A DNA stretch of 64,000 nucleotides from Arboricoccus pini. GTDB taxonomy: Bacteria > Pseudomonadota > Alphaproteobacteria > Geminicoccales > Geminicoccaceae. Location of the stretch: the NCBI RefSeq assembly GCF_900187945.1, contig NZ_FYEH01000002.1, positions 310,001 to 374,000 on the forward strand, given 5' to 3'. A model generated the notes under the pieces. It had not been told where the DNA came from. It searched no databases and saw only the letters and a program-made list of their open reading frames with translations. Positions 40,805 through 47,651 of the stretch are shown piece after piece; position 1 is the first letter of the stretch; every line of letters starts with the position of its first letter. Position numbers and translations under genes: made by a program.

Positions 40805-41998
40805 TTAGGCCTCCAGGAGGGCCAGCGTATGGCGGGCGATCATGAGCTCCTCGTCGGTCGGCAGGACGCGAAGCTCCAGGCGGCTGGCCGGCGTCGAGAT
40901 GAGCGGTGCCCCAGCCTCGTTGGCGGCCTCGTCGAGTTCCACGCCTAGCCAGGCAAGGCGCTTGGCTATACCCGCCCGGACAAAGGCGCTGTGCTCGCCG
41001 ATGCCGGCCGTGAAGACCAGGCCGTCGATCCCGCCCATGAAGCAGGTGAGTTCGGCTGCCGCCATGGCCGCGCGCGTAATGAAATACTCGAGCGCCAGCT
41101 TGGCGCGAGGATCTTGGCTCGATGTCAGGTCACGCACATCGTTGGTGCGTCCCGAGAGGCCCTTCAGGCCGCATTCGTGATAGAGCAGATGGTCGATCTC
41201 CTCGCCGCTCATGCCTTTCTGCCGCATCAGATAAAGAACGACCCCAGCATCGAGCTGGCCCGGCCGCGTGCCCATGGGAATGCCATCGAGGGCGGTGAAC
41301 CCCATGGTGCTGTCGACGCTGCGACAGCCGTCGAGGGCGCACATCGAGCACCCTGAGCCCAGATGGGCGACGACTGTGCGACCGGCGGCCAGCCGCGGTG
41401 CCACCGCCGGCAGCCGGCTGGCGATGTATTCGTAGGACAGGCCATGGAAGCCGTAGCGCCGCACGCCGTCCTCATAGAGCCATTCGGGGATGGCGAAGCG
41501 GTCGGCGATCTCGCTGTGGCCGCGATGAAAGGCCGTGTCGAAGCAGGCGACCTGCGGTAGGTCCGGCCGACGGCGGAGGATCGAGCGCATCGGCGCCAGG
41601 TTGGCCGGCTGATGGAGGGGCGCCAGCGGCGTCAGCGCCGTCATGGCCTCCAGGATCGCGGCATCAATCCTGACGGGCGCCTTGAAGTTGAGACCGCCAT
41701 GGACGACGCGGTGGCCGACCGCCAGGATGCGGACATCGTCCTGGCGGTCCCGAAAGAAGCGGCCGACGACATCCTGGGCGGCCTCGACATCGGCGATGCC
41801 TTCCGCAAAGGCCTCGTCGGCCAGCGTGGCCCCCTTCTCGTCCTTGACGCTCAGTGCCGCATGCGGGGTGCCGATGCCGCTGAGCGCGCCATGCAGGAGC
41901 GAGCGAAGCTCCTTGCCCTCACCAGTACTCTCGACGGCGAAGCTCTCGAATTTGAGACTGGAGGAGCCGGCATTCAGAACGAGGATCGTGTCGGTCAT
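40805..41998 (-). CDS. ackA: Acetate kinase
   Basis: A 397-residue acetate kinase that interconverts acetyl phosphate plus ADP with acetate plus ATP. Family marks are ILVLNAGSSSLKFESF at the start (Asn, Ser, Lys phosphate-site residues), GYGFHGLSYEYIA-like YGFHGLSYEYIASR, VVAHLGSGCSMCAL and GLVFTAGIGEHSAFVR. Its start overlaps the phosphotransacetylase stop by four bases (ATGA), giving a coupled pta-ackA pair. Length and motifs are normal. Confidence 0.95.
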   Translation of the reverse strand: MTDTILVLNAGSSSLKFESFAVESTGEGKELRSLLHGALSGIGTPHAALSVKDEKGATLADEAFAEGIADVEAAQDVVGRFFRDRQDDVRILAVGHRVVHGGLNFKAPVRIDAAILEAMTALTPLAPLHQPANLAPMRSILRRRPDLPQVACFDTAFHRGHSEIADRFAIPEWLYEDGVRRYGFHGLSYEYIASRLPAVAPRLAAGRTVVAHLGSGCSMCALDGCRSVDSTMGFTALDGIPMGTRPGQLDAGVVLYLMRQKGMSGEEIDHLLYHECGLKGLSGRTNDVRDLTSSQDPRAKLALEYFITRAAMAAAELTCFMGGIDGLVFTAGIGEHSAFVRAGIAKRLAWLGVELDEAANEAGAPLISTPASRLELRVLPTDEELMIARHTLALLEA

Positions 41999-42981
41999 GG
42001 CGCCGATCCCTTCAAGGGCGCGTTCCGGCGGCGATAATCGGCATAGAGCGCCGCCACGCCGGCCGAGGCCAGCCGGGTCTTCAGGCTGTCGGCCCGGCTC
42101 GTCAGGATGATCGGCACCCGGGCACCGAGCACGATGCCGGCGGCATCGGCGTTGGCCAGGAAGGAGAGATTTTTGGCCAGCATGTTGCCGGCTTCGAGAT
42201 CAGGCACGATGAGGATCTGCGCCCGGCCAGCCACCTTGCCGCCGATATGCTTGATGGTAGCGGCCGCCGGGCTGATGGCGTTGTCGAGTGCCAAGGGCCC
42301 GTCCAGGTCCCCGCCCTCGATCTGGCCGCGCTCGGCCATCTTGCACAAGGCGGCTGCATCGAGGGTGCCCGGGATCTTCGGATTGACGGTCTCGACGGCT
42401 GAGAGGATTGCCACCCGCGGCCGCCCCAGACCCAGGCCTTGATGGAGGTCGATCGCGTTGCGGACGATGTCGGCCTTGGTCTCGAGATCGGGAAAGATAT
42501 TGACGGCCGCATCCGTGATGAAGAGCGGCAAGGGATAGGTCGGCACGTCCATGATGAAGACGTGGCTGATGCGCCGCTCGGTCCTCAGGCCGCCTTCCTT
42601 GGCAACGACGGCCCGCATCAACTCGTCGGTATGGAGGCTGCCCTTCATCAGAAGTTCGGCCTGACCTTCGCGCACCAGGGCCACCGCGCGTTCGGCTGCG
42701 GCGTGGCTGTGCGGCATGTCCTCGATCGGCAGATCGCCAAGGTCGAACCCGTGCTCGGCCGCGACAGCGCGGATGCGCGCGGCCGGCCCCACGAGCCGTG
42801 GCCTGATAATGCCCATGCGCGCGGCCTCGATGGCTCCCTCGAGCGAGGTCTCGTCGCAGGGATGGACCACGGCGCAGCTTATGGCGTCGATCTTCTGAGT
42901 CTTGGCGATCAACTCTTCATAATGCGCGCGCGGCGGTGTCGGCCCATCACCCTTGACCGGCGGCGTAATCACCTCGCTCAT
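41995..42981 (-). CDS. pta: Phosphate acetyl/butyryltransferase
   Basis: A 328-residue single-domain phosphotransacylase of the short type, with no N-terminal P-loop domain. It converts acetyl-CoA or another acyl-CoA plus phosphate to the acyl phosphate used by the adjacent AckA. Blocks include LLMKGSLHTDELMRAV, ISHVFIMDVPTYPLPLFITD and ILSAVETVNPKIPGTLDAAAL. Similar proteins are often fused to an enoyl-CoA hydratase-like domain; that is not so here. Chain-length preference (acetyl versus butyryl) cannot be judged. Confidence 0.88.
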   Translation of the reverse strand: MSEVITPPVKGDGPTPPRAHYEELIAKTQKIDAISCAVVHPCDETSLEGAIEAARMGIIRPRLVGPAARIRAVAAEHGFDLGDLPIEDMPHSHAAAERAVALVREGQAELLMKGSLHTDELMRAVVAKEGGLRTERRISHVFIMDVPTYPLPLFITDAAVNIFPDLETKADIVRNAIDLHQGLGLGRPRVAILSAVETVNPKIPGTLDAAALCKMAERGQIEGGDLDGPLALDNAISPAAATIKHIGGKVAGRAQILIVPDLEAGNMLAKNLSFLANADAAGIVLGARVPIILTSRADSLKTRLASAGVAALYADYRRRNAPLKGSAP

Positions 42982-43349
42982 GCCTTGCTTCCTGTCGCCG
43001 GCATGCGCCGCCGGATGCGGGCCCCGCCCGGGACCTTGATGCTAGGCACCCCGGCGATCGGAAGGGTGCCAAGAAAGTCGGGCCGCATGAATGCCACCAT
43101 CATGACCTGCCAGCCAGCGACCGGCAGCCTTCGGCTCGCGGATGAAGGGGGCAAAGTCCACGATCGTCCGGACCGCTTCGAGCCTCGCCCCGCCGACGGC
43201 CATGATAGACCCTTCTCCGCTGAAGAAAATCCTCTTGCCGAAGGTATAAGGCGGTCTACTCCATCGTCCCGCATGTGCGAAGCAGCCGGTCGCATATTTC
43301 AATCACGCTTTGGGCCATTGCGGCGGCGTCGGCCATCGGCCACCATGGG
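42982..43349. other. Region without a confident gene, upstream of pta and the riboswitch
   Basis: About 370 bases lie between pta and the cobalamin riboswitch. Short minus-strand frames are open here, one starting at an ATG at 43203 (MAVGGARLEAVRTIVDF) that could encode about 53 residues, but neither homology nor a strong ribosome site supports it. The region should hold the promoters for pta-ackA on one side and for the cobW transcript on the other. Confidence 0.35.
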
Positions 43350-43545
43350 GAGGACGGTGCCCCGTTAAAATCAGGGGCCGAAAAGGGAAGCCGGAAGCGT
43401 GCCTGGATATGGCGCTCCAGCCGGCGCTGCCCCCGCAACTGTAAAGGGTCATGTCCCGCCCTTTCCTGCGCCACTGGCGGCCCTGGCCGCTGGGAAGGCC
43501 GGGCAGGACAACGAGGCCCTGAGCCAGGAGACCTGCCGTCGCAGC
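43350..43545 (+). ncRNA. Cobalamin (B12) riboswitch
   Basis: All the usual blocks occur in order: GGTGCC (43356), AAAAGGGAAGCCGG (about 43381), GCTGCCCCCGCAACTG (about 43425) and the B12 box GCCAGGAGACCTGCC (43523-43537). After the aptamer, CCCGGG arms at 43563-43568 and 43577-43582 can form a hairpin right before the CAGGAGA ribosome site of the CobW gene, so control is probably at translation initiation. High adenosylcobalamin should lower expression of the CobW gene. Confidence 0.95.
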
Positions 43546-43595
43546 TTGACGTCCACCAGCAACCCGGGCGGGGTGTCCCGGGCAGGAGAAAATGC

Positions 43596-44642
43596 ATGAA
43601 AATTCCGGCAACGATCGTTACCGGCTTCCTTGGCGCCGGCAAGACGAGTCTCATCCGCCATCTCCTGGCCAACGTGCGGGGCCGCCCCCTTGCCCTGATC
43701 ATCAACGAGTTCGGAGATATCGGCGCCGATCGGGAGATCATCAAAGGCTGCGGCATCGCCGAATGCGACGAGACGGACGTCATCGAGCTTGCCAATGGCT
43801 GCATCTGCTGCACCGTGGCCGACGATTTCCTGCCGGCGATGCGCCAGATCCTGGCGCGGGAACCGAAGCCCGATCACATCATCATAGAGACCTCGGGCCT
43901 GGCGCTGCCCAAACCGCTGGTCAAGGCGTTTGCCTGGCCGGCCGTACGGAACGCCGTGACCGTCGACGGCGTCGTCGTCCTGGCCGATGCCGCGGCGGTC
44001 CTTGCCGGCCGCTTCGCGCATGATCCGGCGGCCCTGGCCGACCAGCGCGCCGCCGATCCTTCGCTCGATCACGACAGCCCGCTTGAGGAACTCTTCGAGG
44101 AACAGCTCCTCTGTGGCGATCTCGTCGTGCTCAACAAGCAGGATCAGGTGGGCGCCGGTGATCGGCCGGCGATCGAGGCTCTGGTGCGGCCTTATCTGCG
44201 CCCGGGCGTGGGGCTGCTCTGGGCGGAGGGCGGCAAGATAGATCCGGTGGTAGCGCTTGGCCTGGGCATCGGCGCCGAGGACGATCTTGAGAGCCGCCCC
44301 TCGCACCATGATGACGGCCAGGATCACGACCATGACGAGTTCGACAGCTTCGTCCTACAGGTCCCCTCGATCGCCGATCCCGCCCTTATCGAGACGCGGC
44401 TCAAGGTCGCGATCGCGCGCTTCGACATTCTCCGCGTGAAGGGCTTCCTCGCGGTCGATGGCCGGCCGCTCCGCCACGTCGTCCAGGCGGTGGGCCAGCG
44501 CCTCGAGCGCTATTACGACCGTCCCTGGCGACCGGACGAGGCACGCCAGGGCGGTCTCGTCGTCATCGGCCAGCGGGGGACGGCAGGCGGCCTGGATCGC
44601 GCCAGCATCGCCCGGATGGTGCTGGACGGTCTGCCGGCCTGA
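43596..44642 (+). CDS. CobW/COG0523 GTPase, metal chaperone
   Basis: A 348-residue G3E GTPase. Walker A is GFLGAGKTS (Gly10-Ser18), the metal-binding CxCC motif is Cys69-Ile-Cys71-Cys72 in NGCICCTV, and the guanine motif is VLNKQD. A His/Asp-rich loop (HHDDGQDHDHDE) precedes the C-terminal CobW domain. Members deliver metals, and CobW itself is tied to cobalt insertion into cobalamin. The riboswitch directly upstream supports a cobalt/B12 role. CAGGAGA sits six bases before the ATG. A DUF1289-fusion gene follows 10 bases downstream. Confidence 0.92.
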   Translation: MKIPATIVTGFLGAGKTSLIRHLLANVRGRPLALIINEFGDIGADREIIKGCGIAECDETDVIELANGCICCTVADDFLPAMRQILAREPKPDHIIIETSGLALPKPLVKAFAWPAVRNAVTVDGVVVLADAAAVLAGRFAHDPAALADQRAADPSLDHDSPLEELFEEQLLCGDLVVLNKQDQVGAGDRPAIEALVRPYLRPGVGLLWAEGGKIDPVVALGLGIGAEDDLESRPSHHDDGQDHDHDEFDSFVLQVPSIADPALIETRLKVAIARFDILRVKGFLAVDGRPLRHVVQAVGQRLERYYDRPWRPDEARQGGLVVIGQRGTAGGLDRASIARMVLDGLPA

Positions 44643-44652
44643 GCCGCAGCAC

Positions 44653-45552
44653 TTGAGCCTCATCCCCTCACCCTGCACCGGGATCTGCGCGCTCGACCCG
44701 GCGACGGGCTGGTGCCGTGGCTGCGCCCGGACGGCCGACGAGATCACCGCCTGGCCCGGCCTTAGGCCGCCCGCCCAGGCGGCGATCTGGGCGGATTTGC
44801 CTGACCGCCGCGCGATCCTTCGCATGCCCTTCGAGCTCCTGCCCTGGACGGGAGCTTCCTTGCTCCGGCGGCTGGCCGAAAGCGGGCGCTCCTTTGCCTG
44901 CAGCATGGGGACGACCGGGGCCGTGGCCGAATTCGTGCCCGACGACGCGACCCGGCTGGAGATGCAAGACGACAGGCTGGGCGCGCGTGCCACCGATGGA
45001 GCGTTGCTGCTGGAAGACCGGCCTGGCATGCGCGCTTTCGCCGTTAGCCTGGAGAGCGGCGCCGAGGCCGTGGTCCTGGCTTTGCATCGTGCCCGACTCA
45101 AGGTCGTTCACCCTGACTGCGTCACTCGGCTCGGACCGGACGACATGGCCTTGATGCCGGGCGAGAATGACTGCGAACTGATCGACCTGGGGCTGGGTCG
45201 CCGGACCTGCCGGTTTTGCGTCAGAACCAAGGAGCCCCATCTTCTGGAGGAAGCATCTCTCGCGGCCGGGCGACAGTGGCAGGACAAGACGCATCGTCTG
45301 GTCCCTCTGCTTCTCGCTGCCAGCCCCACCCGCGTCCTCCTCGGGCCGTTTGGTCGCATTGAGGTCAAAGGACCGATCGGCCGGCAGGGAGTGGGCTCCC
45401 GCACGCATCTGCTGCCACCATTGCTTGAACGTGGCCAGGATCTGGGGCCAGGCTCGGGCCTGCCGCCCGATTACATTGCCTTGGCCATCCTGCACGGCGG
45501 TCCCAACACCCTCTTGCCGCCCTGCAATACGCGCGCCTTACTGAGCGTTTGA
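44653..45552 (+). CDS. DUF1289 domain fused to an unknown domain
   Basis: A 299-residue protein. The N-terminus is a DUF1289 module with four Cys (8, 12, 21, 24) in SPCTGICALDPATGWCRGCA followed by RTADEITAW, likely a small metal or Fe-S site. The remaining 230 residues are an uncharacterised domain with another CxxC (RRTCRFCVRTKE). No ATG or GTG fits; TTG 44653 is the most plausible start, 10 bases after the CobW stop. It therefore should be co-transcribed with the CobW gene and may share B12 riboswitch control. I do not recognise a function. Confidence 0.65.
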   Translation: MSLIPSPCTGICALDPATGWCRGCARTADEITAWPGLRPPAQAAIWADLPDRRAILRMPFELLPWTGASLLRRLAESGRSFACSMGTTGAVAEFVPDDATRLEMQDDRLGARATDGALLLEDRPGMRAFAVSLESGAEAVVLALHRARLKVVHPDCVTRLGPDDMALMPGENDCELIDLGLGRRTCRFCVRTKEPHLLEEASLAAGRQWQDKTHRLVPLLLAASPTRVLLGPFGRIEVKGPIGRQGVGSRTHLLPPLLERGQDLGPGSGLPPDYIALAILHGGPNTLLPPCNTRALLSV

Positions 45553-45574
45553 TCAACGGCGGAAAGAATTCCCT

Positions 45575-45895
45575 ATGACCAAGGCATACTGGCTGGCCCA
45601 GGTCGATGTGGCCGACGCTGAGGCCTACAAGGCCTATATTACCGCCAATGCGGTTGCATTTCGCAAATATGGCGCCCGCTTCCTGGTCCGCAGCGGCACG
45701 GCACGGGTCGTCGAAGGGCAGGCGCGAGGGCGCACCGTCGTCATCGAATTTCCCGATATCGCTGCCGCCAATGCCTGCTATGGGTCGCCCGAGTACCAAG
45801 CGGCCATAGCTCTGCGCCGGCCCGTTTCCACGGCCGACGTCCTGATCGTCGAGGGCTATGATGGCCCCCAGCCAGCAGACCGGGCGGCAGGCTGA
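45575..45895 (+). CDS. DUF1330 domain protein
   Basis: A 106-residue dimeric ferredoxin-like-fold protein of the DUF1330 family (AYWLAQVDVADAEAYKAY, YGARFLVRSG and GRTVVIEFPDIAAANACYGS). The function of the family is unknown; the fold resembles small oxygenases and EthD-type proteins. GGAAAGAA lies upstream of the ATG. It follows the DUF1289-fusion gene by 22 bases and may belong to the same transcript. Convergent ilvA follows. Confidence 0.88.
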   Translation: MTKAYWLAQVDVADAEAYKAYITANAVAFRKYGARFLVRSGTARVVEGQARGRTVVIEFPDIAAANACYGSPEYQAAIALRRPVSTADVLIVEGYDGPQPADRAAG

Positions 45896-45941
45896 CCCTG
45901 CTTGCCCCGGCACATGATGGGGCCCGCAGCGCCTGAGGAAT

Positions 45942-45967
45942 GGCGGCGCGACCGAAGCCGCGCCGCC
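45942..45967. other. GC-rich perfect hairpin downstream of the DUF1330 gene
   Basis: GGCGGCGCG and CGCGCCGCC form a perfect nine-base stem around an eight-base loop, about 50 bases after the DUF1330 stop. It lacks a T-run, so it is a pause or stability element rather than a clean terminator. Confidence 0.4.
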
Positions 45968-46001
45968 GGAACCGGACCGCAGCAAACGCTCCAGGCACCT
46001 T

Positions 46002-46050
46002 CCAAAACGGAACTATAACCTAATTGATGAGTCAATCAATAGGGTTTTGG
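46002..46050. terminator. Long imperfect hairpin between convergent DUF1330 gene and ilvA
   Basis: Outer arms CCAAAAC and GTTTTGG enclose inner arms CCTAATTGAT and ATCAATAGG (one bulged A). The structure is AT-rich and ends in TTTT on the plus strand, and is nearly symmetrical, so it could terminate transcription from both sides. Confidence 0.5.
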
Positions 46051-46055
46051 CGGCC

Positions 46056-47651
46056 TCATGAGGCCGGGGAAGCGCCAAGAAACAGGGCATAGGCCGGATT
46101 GTCGGTCTCGTCGCTGTAGGGATAGGCTAGGCGCTCCAGATAGGTGGCAAAGCTGGCCTCCTCGCCGGGCGGGATCTGGATGCCGGCCAGGACGCGGCCG
46201 TAATCCGCACCCTGGTTGCGATAATGAAAAAGCGTAATGTTCCAGCTGGCGGACATGCCCTCGAGAAACTTCATGAGGGCGCCCGGCCGCTCAGGAAACT
46301 GGAATCGATAGATGCGCTCGTGTGCGATGCCTTCTACGCGACCACCAACCATGTAGCGGGCATGAACCTTGGCCATCTCATTGTCGCTGAGATCGACGAC
46401 GGAATAGCCTTCCGCCCTTAGGGCCTGGGCAATCTCGCGCCCCTCGGCCAAGCCTTTGTTCAGAGCCACGCCCAGGAAGATCTGCGCCTGCGAGCCGCCG
46501 GCGAAGCGATAATTGAACTCGGTAACCGCGCGCCGACCGAGGGACTGGATCAACCGTCGATAGCTGCCCGGCTGCTCGGGGATGCCGACCGCCAGGAGGG
46601 CCTCGCGATGCTCGCCGATCTCGGCTCTCTCGGCGATGTGCCGCAGGCGATCGAAATTGAGATTGGCGCCGCTATTGATGGCGATCAGCGCGCCTGGCAC
46701 GGTCCCTTCCCGCTCGCGGTATTTCTTGAGCCCAGCCAGGCCCAGCGCGCCCGAAGGCTCGGCGATCGAACGGGTCTCGTCGAAAATGTCCTTGATGGCG
46801 GCGCAGACCGCATCGGTATCGACCGTGATGATCTCGTCGAGAAGCAGGCGGCAGAGCTTGAACGTCTCCGCGCCGACTCGTCGGACGGCCACGCCGTCGG
46901 CAAAAAGCCCCACCTGATCGAGCGTCACCTGGGCATCCGCCTGGATAGCCGCCTGCATGCTGGCTGCATCATCAGGCTCGACACCGATAATGCGGGTCTC
47001 GGGACGGAGAAACTTGACGTAGGCAGCGATGCCGGCCGCCAATCCGCCGCCGCCGATCGGCACGAAGATCGCTGCGATTGGAGCGGTGTGCTGGCGCAGG
47101 ATCTCCATGCCGATCGTGCCCTGGCCGGCAATGACGTCGGGATCGTCGAAGGGGGGGATGAAAGTGAGGCTTTCGGCTGCGGCGATCTTTCGCGCATGCG
47201 CTGCCGCCTCGTCATAGCCATCGCCATGCAGGACGACCTCGCCACCAAGGGCGGCCACGGCCTGCACCTTGATGCCAGGCGTGGTGAGCGGCATGACGAT
47301 AACGGCCCGGCCGCCGAGCCGGCTGGCGGCCAGGGCCACGCCTTGGGCGTGGTTGCCGGCCGAGGCGCAAATCACTCCGCGGCCGAGGCTGTCGGCATCA
47401 AGGTTCGCCATCTTGTTGTAGGCGCCGCGCAGCTTGAAGGAGAAGACCTGCTGCAGGTCCTCGCGCTTCAAGAAAATGTCAGCATCCAGGCGTCCGGAGA
47501 GCTTTTCCAGCCGGTCGAGCGGTGATTCGATCGCGACGTCATAGACGCGGGCAGCCAGAATACGGCGCACATAGGCAGCGATCAGGTCCGCCGCTTCGTC
47601 CAGATCGGCAGGCACGCCATCGGCGTGCGATTTCTGCAGGGCATTCACCAT
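46056..47651 (-). CDS. ilvA: Threonine ammonia-lyase, biosynthetic
   Basis: A 531-residue threonine deaminase, first step of isoleucine synthesis (threonine to 2-oxobutanoate). The PLP Lys is in QQVFSFKLRGAYN; other catalytic-domain blocks are ASAGNHAQGVALAA and PIGGGGLAAGIAAYVKFL. The C-terminal third has two ACT-like regulatory modules (EHREALLAVGIPEQPGSYRR and RIYRFQFPERPGALMKFL), as in isoleucine-sensitive long forms. Length and domain order are normal. A 14-base palindrome (46052-46065) overlaps its stop codon. Confidence 0.95.
   Translation of the reverse strand: MVNALQKSHADGVPADLDEAADLIAAYVRRILAARVYDVAIESPLDRLEKLSGRLDADIFLKREDLQQVFSFKLRGAYNKMANLDADSLGRGVICASAGNHAQGVALAASRLGGRAVIVMPLTTPGIKVQAVAALGGEVVLHGDGYDEAAAHARKIAAAESLTFIPPFDDPDVIAGQGTIGMEILRQHTAPIAAIFVPIGGGGLAAGIAAYVKFLRPETRIIGVEPDDAASMQAAIQADAQVTLDQVGLFADGVAVRRVGAETFKLCRLLLDEIITVDTDAVCAAIKDIFDETRSIAEPSGALGLAGLKKYREREGTVPGALIAINSGANLNFDRLRHIAERAEIGEHREALLAVGIPEQPGSYRRLIQSLGRRAVTEFNYRFAGGSQAQIFLGVALNKGLAEGREIAQALRAEGYSVVDLSDNEMAKVHARYMVGGRVEGIAHERIYRFQFPERPGALMKFLEGMSASWNITLFHYRNQGADYGRVLAGIQIPPGEEASFATYLERLAYPYSDETDNPAYALFLGASPAS

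Follow-up and report, generated by a model that had tools for sequence, protein, structure and literature searches.

DUF6925, found fused to DUF1289 behind a cobalamin riboswitch in Arboricoccus pini, recurs in vitamin B12 and cobalt loci

Regulons under cobalamin riboswitches have been described for the synthesis and transport of B12, for cobalt transport and for isozymes (PMC3766115). In the window (the whole 64-kb stretch of Arboricoccus pini DNA that was analysed), such a riboswitch precedes cobW and a second gene that encodes a fusion of DUF1289 and DUF6925. What a fusion protein of this kind contributes to a B12 operon, and whether its position is peculiar to this genome, are the questions that the locus raises. 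Its features are as follows.

43338–43554, + strand: cobalamin riboswitch aptamer, RF00174 (cmscan, 96.5 bits, E 8e-23)
43563–43582, + strand: CCCGGG/CCCGGG hairpin, candidate expression platform (sequence and centroid fold)
43584–43589, + strand: AGGAGA, ribosome-binding site of cobW (by reading the sequence)
43596–44642, + strand: cobW, Co(II) chaperone GTPase (TIGR02475, 487 bits; CxCC and GTPase motifs)
44653–45552, + strand: DUF1289–DUF6925 fusion gene (Pfam PF06945 and PF21973)
44668–44811, + strand: DUF1289 domain, residues 6–53 (PF06945, 61.2 bits against a cut-off of 27)
44887–45495, + strand: DUF6925 domain, residues 79–281 (PF21973, 141.2 bits against a cut-off of 27)
45575–45895, + strand: DUF1330 gene, possible third gene of the operon (PF07045, 120 bits)

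The aptamer is matched over the full RF00174 model (positions 1–189), far above the cut-off of 31.5 bits, and is the sole Rfam match above its cut-off in the whole 64 kb, which bears out the complete B12 riboswitch claimed in the first-pass annotation of this locus. That annotation also placed a hairpin beside the ribosome site. The hairpin is present, with CCCGGG arms at 43563–43568 and 43577–43582, and ends 1 base 5′ of AGGAGA. It appears in the centroid fold, nonetheless its stretch folds worse than its own shuffles (z +1.96), and the whole leader gives z +1.06. Because leader and hairpin are less stable than their shuffles, no expression platform is established.

The first gene encodes a true CobW, in agreement with the CobW-type metal chaperone proposed earlier. 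The protein (ATG start at 43596, 348 amino acids) exceeds the TIGR02475 equivalog cut-off of 332 bits and carries GFLGAGKT at residue 10, CICC at 69, IIIETSG at 95 and NKQD at 180, the counterparts of the CxCC, GxxGxGKT, hhhExxG and NKxD motifs described for CobW, which is reported to take up Co(II) with Mg-GTP for the CobNST chelatase (PMC7895991). The pairing of riboswitch and CobW is ordinary. The window therefore resembles known cobalamin-riboswitch operons in having RF00174 ahead of an equivalog-grade CobW, and differs from them in adding DUF1289–DUF6925 and DUF1330; the main text of a survey of cis-regulatory RNAs contains no word beginning DUF (PMC3766115).

The second gene has a TTG start, encodes 299 amino acids and follows cobW after a 10-base gap (44643–44652). 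As first annotated, it holds a four-Cys DUF1289 domain, with Cys at residues 8, 12, 21 and 24, a pattern also found in all nine fused rows of the alignment (A5). What had been overlooked is that most of this protein is DUF6925, the carrier of the B12 signal, matched over profile positions 13–226 of 300, and that the DUF1330 gene lies 22 bases (45553–45574) 3′ of the fusion gene. A separate promoter for the DUF1289 gene had been named as a point to check; a simple consensus scan of the + strand of 43100–46100 gave no promoter-like and no terminator-like site, which is weak evidence that cobW, the fusion gene and the DUF1330 gene may form one transcript.

DUF6925 was found in 8 of the 31 genomes of the family (the order-level sample consists of the same 31), and in at least 26 of 385 genomes sampled from the class and at least 10 of 398 sampled from the phylum, counts that are lower bounds because at most five candidates were scored per genome. 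At all eight own-family loci (the window and L016–L022), RF00174 lies upstream of DUF6925 on the same strand. CobW stands immediately 5′ of the fusion in L017 and L018 as in the window, giving the order riboswitch–CobW–fusion. Elsewhere, with the transporters named by eye, the order is riboswitch–MetE–fusion–BtuD–BtuF–BtuC (L019), riboswitch–fusion–BtuD–BtuF (L021) or riboswitch–BtuB–BtuF–BtuC–BtuD–DUF6925 without DUF1289 (L016), and L020 and L022 have riboswitch–fusion.

The linkage extends beyond the family. A riboswitch is present at 14 of the 26 further class-level loci, and lies upstream on the same strand at nine of them, including a weak match of 34.7 bits in L064; in the other five it is either divergent (L067) or on the same strand but 3′ of DUF6925 (L053, L063, L066 and L068), and cannot control DUF6925. 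Among the named loci (L075–L154, the best 80 of 465 relatives, four of which repeat contigs of earlier sets), 52 of 80 have a riboswitch, 49 of them upstream on the same strand; with near-identical loci removed, the count is 36 of 59. The 52 include four weak matches (43–62 bits) to R1, a model built from 23 of these riboswitches: L152, which is cut by a contig end, and L098, L141 and L143, where the same-strand match is 6–7 kb upstream and a shared transcript does not necessarily follow. Riboswitches also occur at six of nine phylum-level loci and at four of the five plasmid loci examined, from 48 matching records. None was found in 339 kb of control sequence, 20 regions drawn one by one from 20 of these genomes; instead of being picked at random, most regions are the initial 18.8 kb of contig 1. 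Matches to R1 in most of L016–L022 and L049–L074 arise by construction, so that counts there were taken from RF00174; in the named set, three loci (L075, L076 and L089) are on contigs already used to build R1. A regular expression for the B12 box recovered all 10 cmscan riboswitches in the sequences checked, and also matched at one false position in the window and at 10 in 1.39 Mb of shuffled sequence; because of such false matches, riboswitch counts were taken from covariance models.

Some observations count against the explanation that we favour below. No riboswitch was found at 12 of the 26 class-level, 28 of the 80 named and three of the nine phylum-level loci, a group that includes short contigs, and seven class-level loci (L049, L057, L058, L061, L062, L071 and L072) have no B12 link by eye. 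One riboswitch-less phylum-level locus, L258, sits among cob genes (by eye). The 31 family genomes together hold 57 cobalamin riboswitches, spread over 28 genomes, with DUF6925 in just 8; 20 of the 28 riboswitch genomes lack DUF6925, which is thus dispensable for B12 use and not general to B12 users. On the evidence of genomic context, the reading of DUF6925 as a B12-regulon family is well supported.

The fused form follows the same pattern. Among the loci checked for DUF1289 (L250–L258 were outside this check), 19 are fused: the window, L017–L022, L067, L069, L070, L073, L074, L097, L109, L125, L128, L132, L145 and L260. A riboswitch accompanies 15 of these 19, that of L067 being divergent; the other four are L070, and L074, L097 and L132, which are on short or edge contigs. 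In L070 (7636–9618), the neighbour of the fused gene is hemB-like (by eye), and 18 kb of sequence there holds no cobalamin riboswitch.

The genes around DUF6925 point in the same direction. When 110 loci were clustered, TonB-receptor clusters were found in 35 and 16 loci, always on the DUF6925 strand, CobW in 12 and CobN in 10, six of these belonging to one near-identical sphingomonad cluster. The commonest setting seen is a BtuBFCD-type operon. Pfam confirmed, on single representatives, the TonB-dependent receptor, FecCD, Peripla_BP_2, CobW, CobN and MetE, as well as Cob_adeno_trans (L060), CbtA (L064), NicO (L129), ABC-3 and ZnuA (L125), and nitrile hydratase alpha and beta (L078). MetE adjoins DUF6925 in L019 and lies within about 6 kb of it in three Pseudonocardia loci. 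The earlier proposal that the fusion protein acts in cobalt or B12 handling gains from this survey, as DUF6925, fused or unfused, recurs in riboswitch, BtuBFCD-type, cobW/cobN and cbtA loci. In L125 and L145, a cobalamin riboswitch, ABC-3/ZnuA-type genes and a fused DUF1289–DUF6925 gene occur together, and the transporter genes (in L145 named by eye) possibly encode a cobalt importer.

Plasmids provide the closest annotated comparisons, and in five plasmid records the DUF6925 proteins are annotated as 'hypothetical protein' or 'DUF1289 domain-containing protein'. On pCMU01 of Methylobacterium extorquens CM4, WP_012606291.1 (MCHL_RS27660, 'hypothetical protein') aligns with 73% of the window protein at 34% identity; the match differs in beginning at residue 64, beyond DUF1289. 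Its gene overlaps that of the ABC ATPase in an operon headed by a riboswitch, in the order TonB receptor, substrate-binding protein, permease, ATPase and DUF6925, with cobM and cbiE adjacent. The pCMU01 paper lists btuB, C, D and F and a riboswitch, and Mchl_5680, the next tag in the series and presumably the gene of WP_012606291.1, is absent from its text (PMC3621897). A Shinella plasmid has the same importer order, followed by an adenosylcobinamide amidohydrolase gene, with nrdHIEF and metE near. On pORIO2 of Cereibacter azotoformans, WP_238823760.1 ('DUF1289 domain-containing protein') is 36.5% identical over 94% of the window protein; a riboswitch and one small gene precede it amid cobU, cobyric acid synthase, an ABC importer and cbiM/cbiQ, and it differs from the window in having no adjoining cobW in the stretch viewed. 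The open-access papers searched have no mention of DUF6925 nor of DUF1289 together with cobalamin, and none of those naming DUF1289 looks relevant by its title and the start of its abstract. As far as these searches show, that DUF6925 and the DUF1289–DUF6925 fusion belong to a B12 regulon is not described in these papers.

The structure of DUF6925 was predicted with confidence by AlphaFold2, both for the window protein (42 aligned sequences; pLDDT 89.4, pTM 0.87) and for an unfused Bradyrhizobium relative, the long form (pLDDT 92.4, pTM 0.89). In VIA-align, HemS, PhuS and ChuS fill rows 1–8 for the window model (Z 5.9–6.4, rmsd 3.9–8.4, 154–170 residues aligned), with all Z values below 8, a range that may reflect just a common arrangement; HutX (row 9, 4.7), 3na2 (row 10, 4.5) and 4tmd (3.1) come next. 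For the long form, 3na2 leads at Z 7.5, and PhuS, HemS and ChuS score 5.0–5.7 and 4tmd 4.5. The function of 3na2 is not known, and it is absent, up to E 10, from the PDB list of a HemS profile. Foldseek returned nothing at E 0.001 for either model; DNA sliding clamps, which make up much of both lists, were dismissed on TM-scores of about 0.1 and rmsd of about 18.

Sequence comparisons set a limit on this likeness. PF05171 is absent from the window protein at E 0.1 and from four relatives at E 10, hhalign against a profile of 13 HemS proteins gave 0.9% and 0.5% probability, and PDB sequence searches gave chance rows only. Membership of the HemS family was therefore rejected on the sequence profiles, and HemS is kept as a model of how DUF6925 may work. 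The likeness is one of predicted fold only, and moderate. PhuS shuttles haem within the cytosol, HemS is associated with a haem transport system, and proteins of this type have an axial ligand His on helix 7 (PMC6018153). Their role beside haem transport parallels the importer–DUF6925 gene order, in which DUF6925 is placed beside a TonB receptor and a FecCD-type importer; the difference is that DUF6925 is tied to B12 rather than haem loci.

The home genome (4.07 Mb, 99% complete) has three cobalamin riboswitches, which precede MetE (L013), CbtB–CbtA (L014) and the window operon (gene names by eye). Its single CobN is on the same contig as the window cobW, about 266 kb away and beside a CobU-like gene. 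Its FecCD permeases form two tandem pairs, with no obvious single BtuC-like permease. The genome looks like that of a B12 maker that imports cobalt.

We think that the window probably holds a B12-repressed operon whose products handle cobalt and corrinoid, and in which the fusion protein would be a cytosolic partner of CobW. When adenosylcobalamin is scarce, the riboswitch would permit expression of cobW and the DUF1289–DUF6925 gene; CobW would bind Co(II) with Mg-GTP and hand it towards CobNST, and the DUF6925 domain would use a predicted HemS-like fold to bind a ligand that contains cobalt, a corrinoid being the likeliest, and pass it on as PhuS does with haem. The four-Cys DUF1289 domain is assumed to supply a metal or redox site. 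Beside CobW and without an obvious B12 importer, as in the window, the protein may act on cobalt or on corrinoid that the cell has just made, whereas the substrate in btu operons would be corrinoid taken up from outside. The cobW and the btu settings are both consistent with a corrinoid carrier. More specifically, and tentatively, DUF6925 could be a cytosolic corrinoid chaperone, a B12 counterpart of PhuS and HemS, that takes B12 from BtuCD or new corrinoid near CobW/CobN to adenosylation or remodelling, with the fused DUF1289 contributing a four-Cys metal site as its link to cobalt supply. Confidence in the favoured explanation is slightly reduced by the long form, for which HemS stands out less from the other structures, and by the 20 riboswitch genomes without DUF6925. 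The window protein has GSRTH where 41 of 42 aligned rows have GPHTH, which also counts against the best explanation.

The evidence can be read in other ways. DUF6925 might handle cobalt ions rather than corrinoids. It would then serve as a metallochaperone, buffer or insertase for Co(II), liganded by its conserved His motif and also, when DUF1289 is attached, by the four Cys. CobW and CobN as neighbours would suit this, as would the upstream CbtA of L064 and that of L073 (by eye), NicO near DUF6925 in L129, the ABC-3/ZnuA genes behind the riboswitch in L125 and, by eye, in L145, and the lack of an obvious BtuC-like permease in the home genome. So would L078 (7270–9616), where DUF6925 lies between the genes for nitrile hydratase alpha and beta and the alpha subunit has a VCTLCSC motif, which we take to be of the cobalt type; however, the link fails in reverse, with DUF6925 within about 1.5 kb in none of 30 nitrile hydratase loci among the matches listed. 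As BtuBFCD-type operons are the commonest setting seen and the nearest folds bind tetrapyrrole, we regard a cobalt-ion function as rather unlikely. Separately, a VCTLCSC motif lies about 4.5 kb from DUF6925 in L091, on the opposite strand.

An enzyme that alters or degrades corrinoids, for remodelling or cobalt release, would draw on the haem-degrading activity reported for HemS-type proteins (PMC6018153), on the adenosylcobinamide amidohydrolase gene 3′ of DUF6925 in Shinella and on the adenosyltransferase gene 5′ of it in L060. Destruction of corrinoids during B12 shortage makes little sense, although remodelling would, and no catalytic site was identified; we consider such an enzyme improbable. 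Least probable, in our judgement, is that the gene stands with B12 genes by chance, either as a passenger or in the service of B12-independent backup metabolism. MetE near DUF6925 in L019 and the Pseudonocardia loci, the DUF1330 gene that also follows in the window operon, and the several loci without any B12 link could be read in this way, against which stands recurrent linkage to several unlike B12 operons, compared with no riboswitch in the control regions. The backup role, raised in the first-pass annotation, was set aside because MetE is only an occasional neighbour and the home MetE (by eye) has its own riboswitch.

To our knowledge, little is understood of how bacteria carry and process B12 in the cytosol once it has passed BtuCD, in contrast to haem, for which cytosolic carriers are well studied. 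DUF6925 recurs in B12-riboswitch operons, mostly in records titled as Alphaproteobacteria, and has a predicted haem-carrier-like fold; such a family makes this gap testable, and is a good candidate for a missing helper that would handle B12 or cobalt inside the cell. Its fusion would give the four-Cys DUF1289 domain a functional setting.

Three further observations concern the arrangement of these loci. A 12–16.6-kb B12 cluster that is 99.66–100% identical is shared by L081, L082, L083, L085, L086 and L087, whose record titles name Novosphingobium, Blastomonas, Erythrobacter and Sphingopyxis; it holds up to three riboswitches, DUF6925, cobW and cobN, no PLSDB plasmid covers 80% of it, and its spread reflects recent transfer or cross-contamination. 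The Cereibacter azotoformans pORIO2 locus (L260, 99569–116438) has six cobalamin riboswitch matches in 17 kb. In the window, overlapping genes for acetate kinase and a phosphate acetyl/butyryltransferase (40805–42981, − strand) lie just upstream of the riboswitch and are divergent from it.
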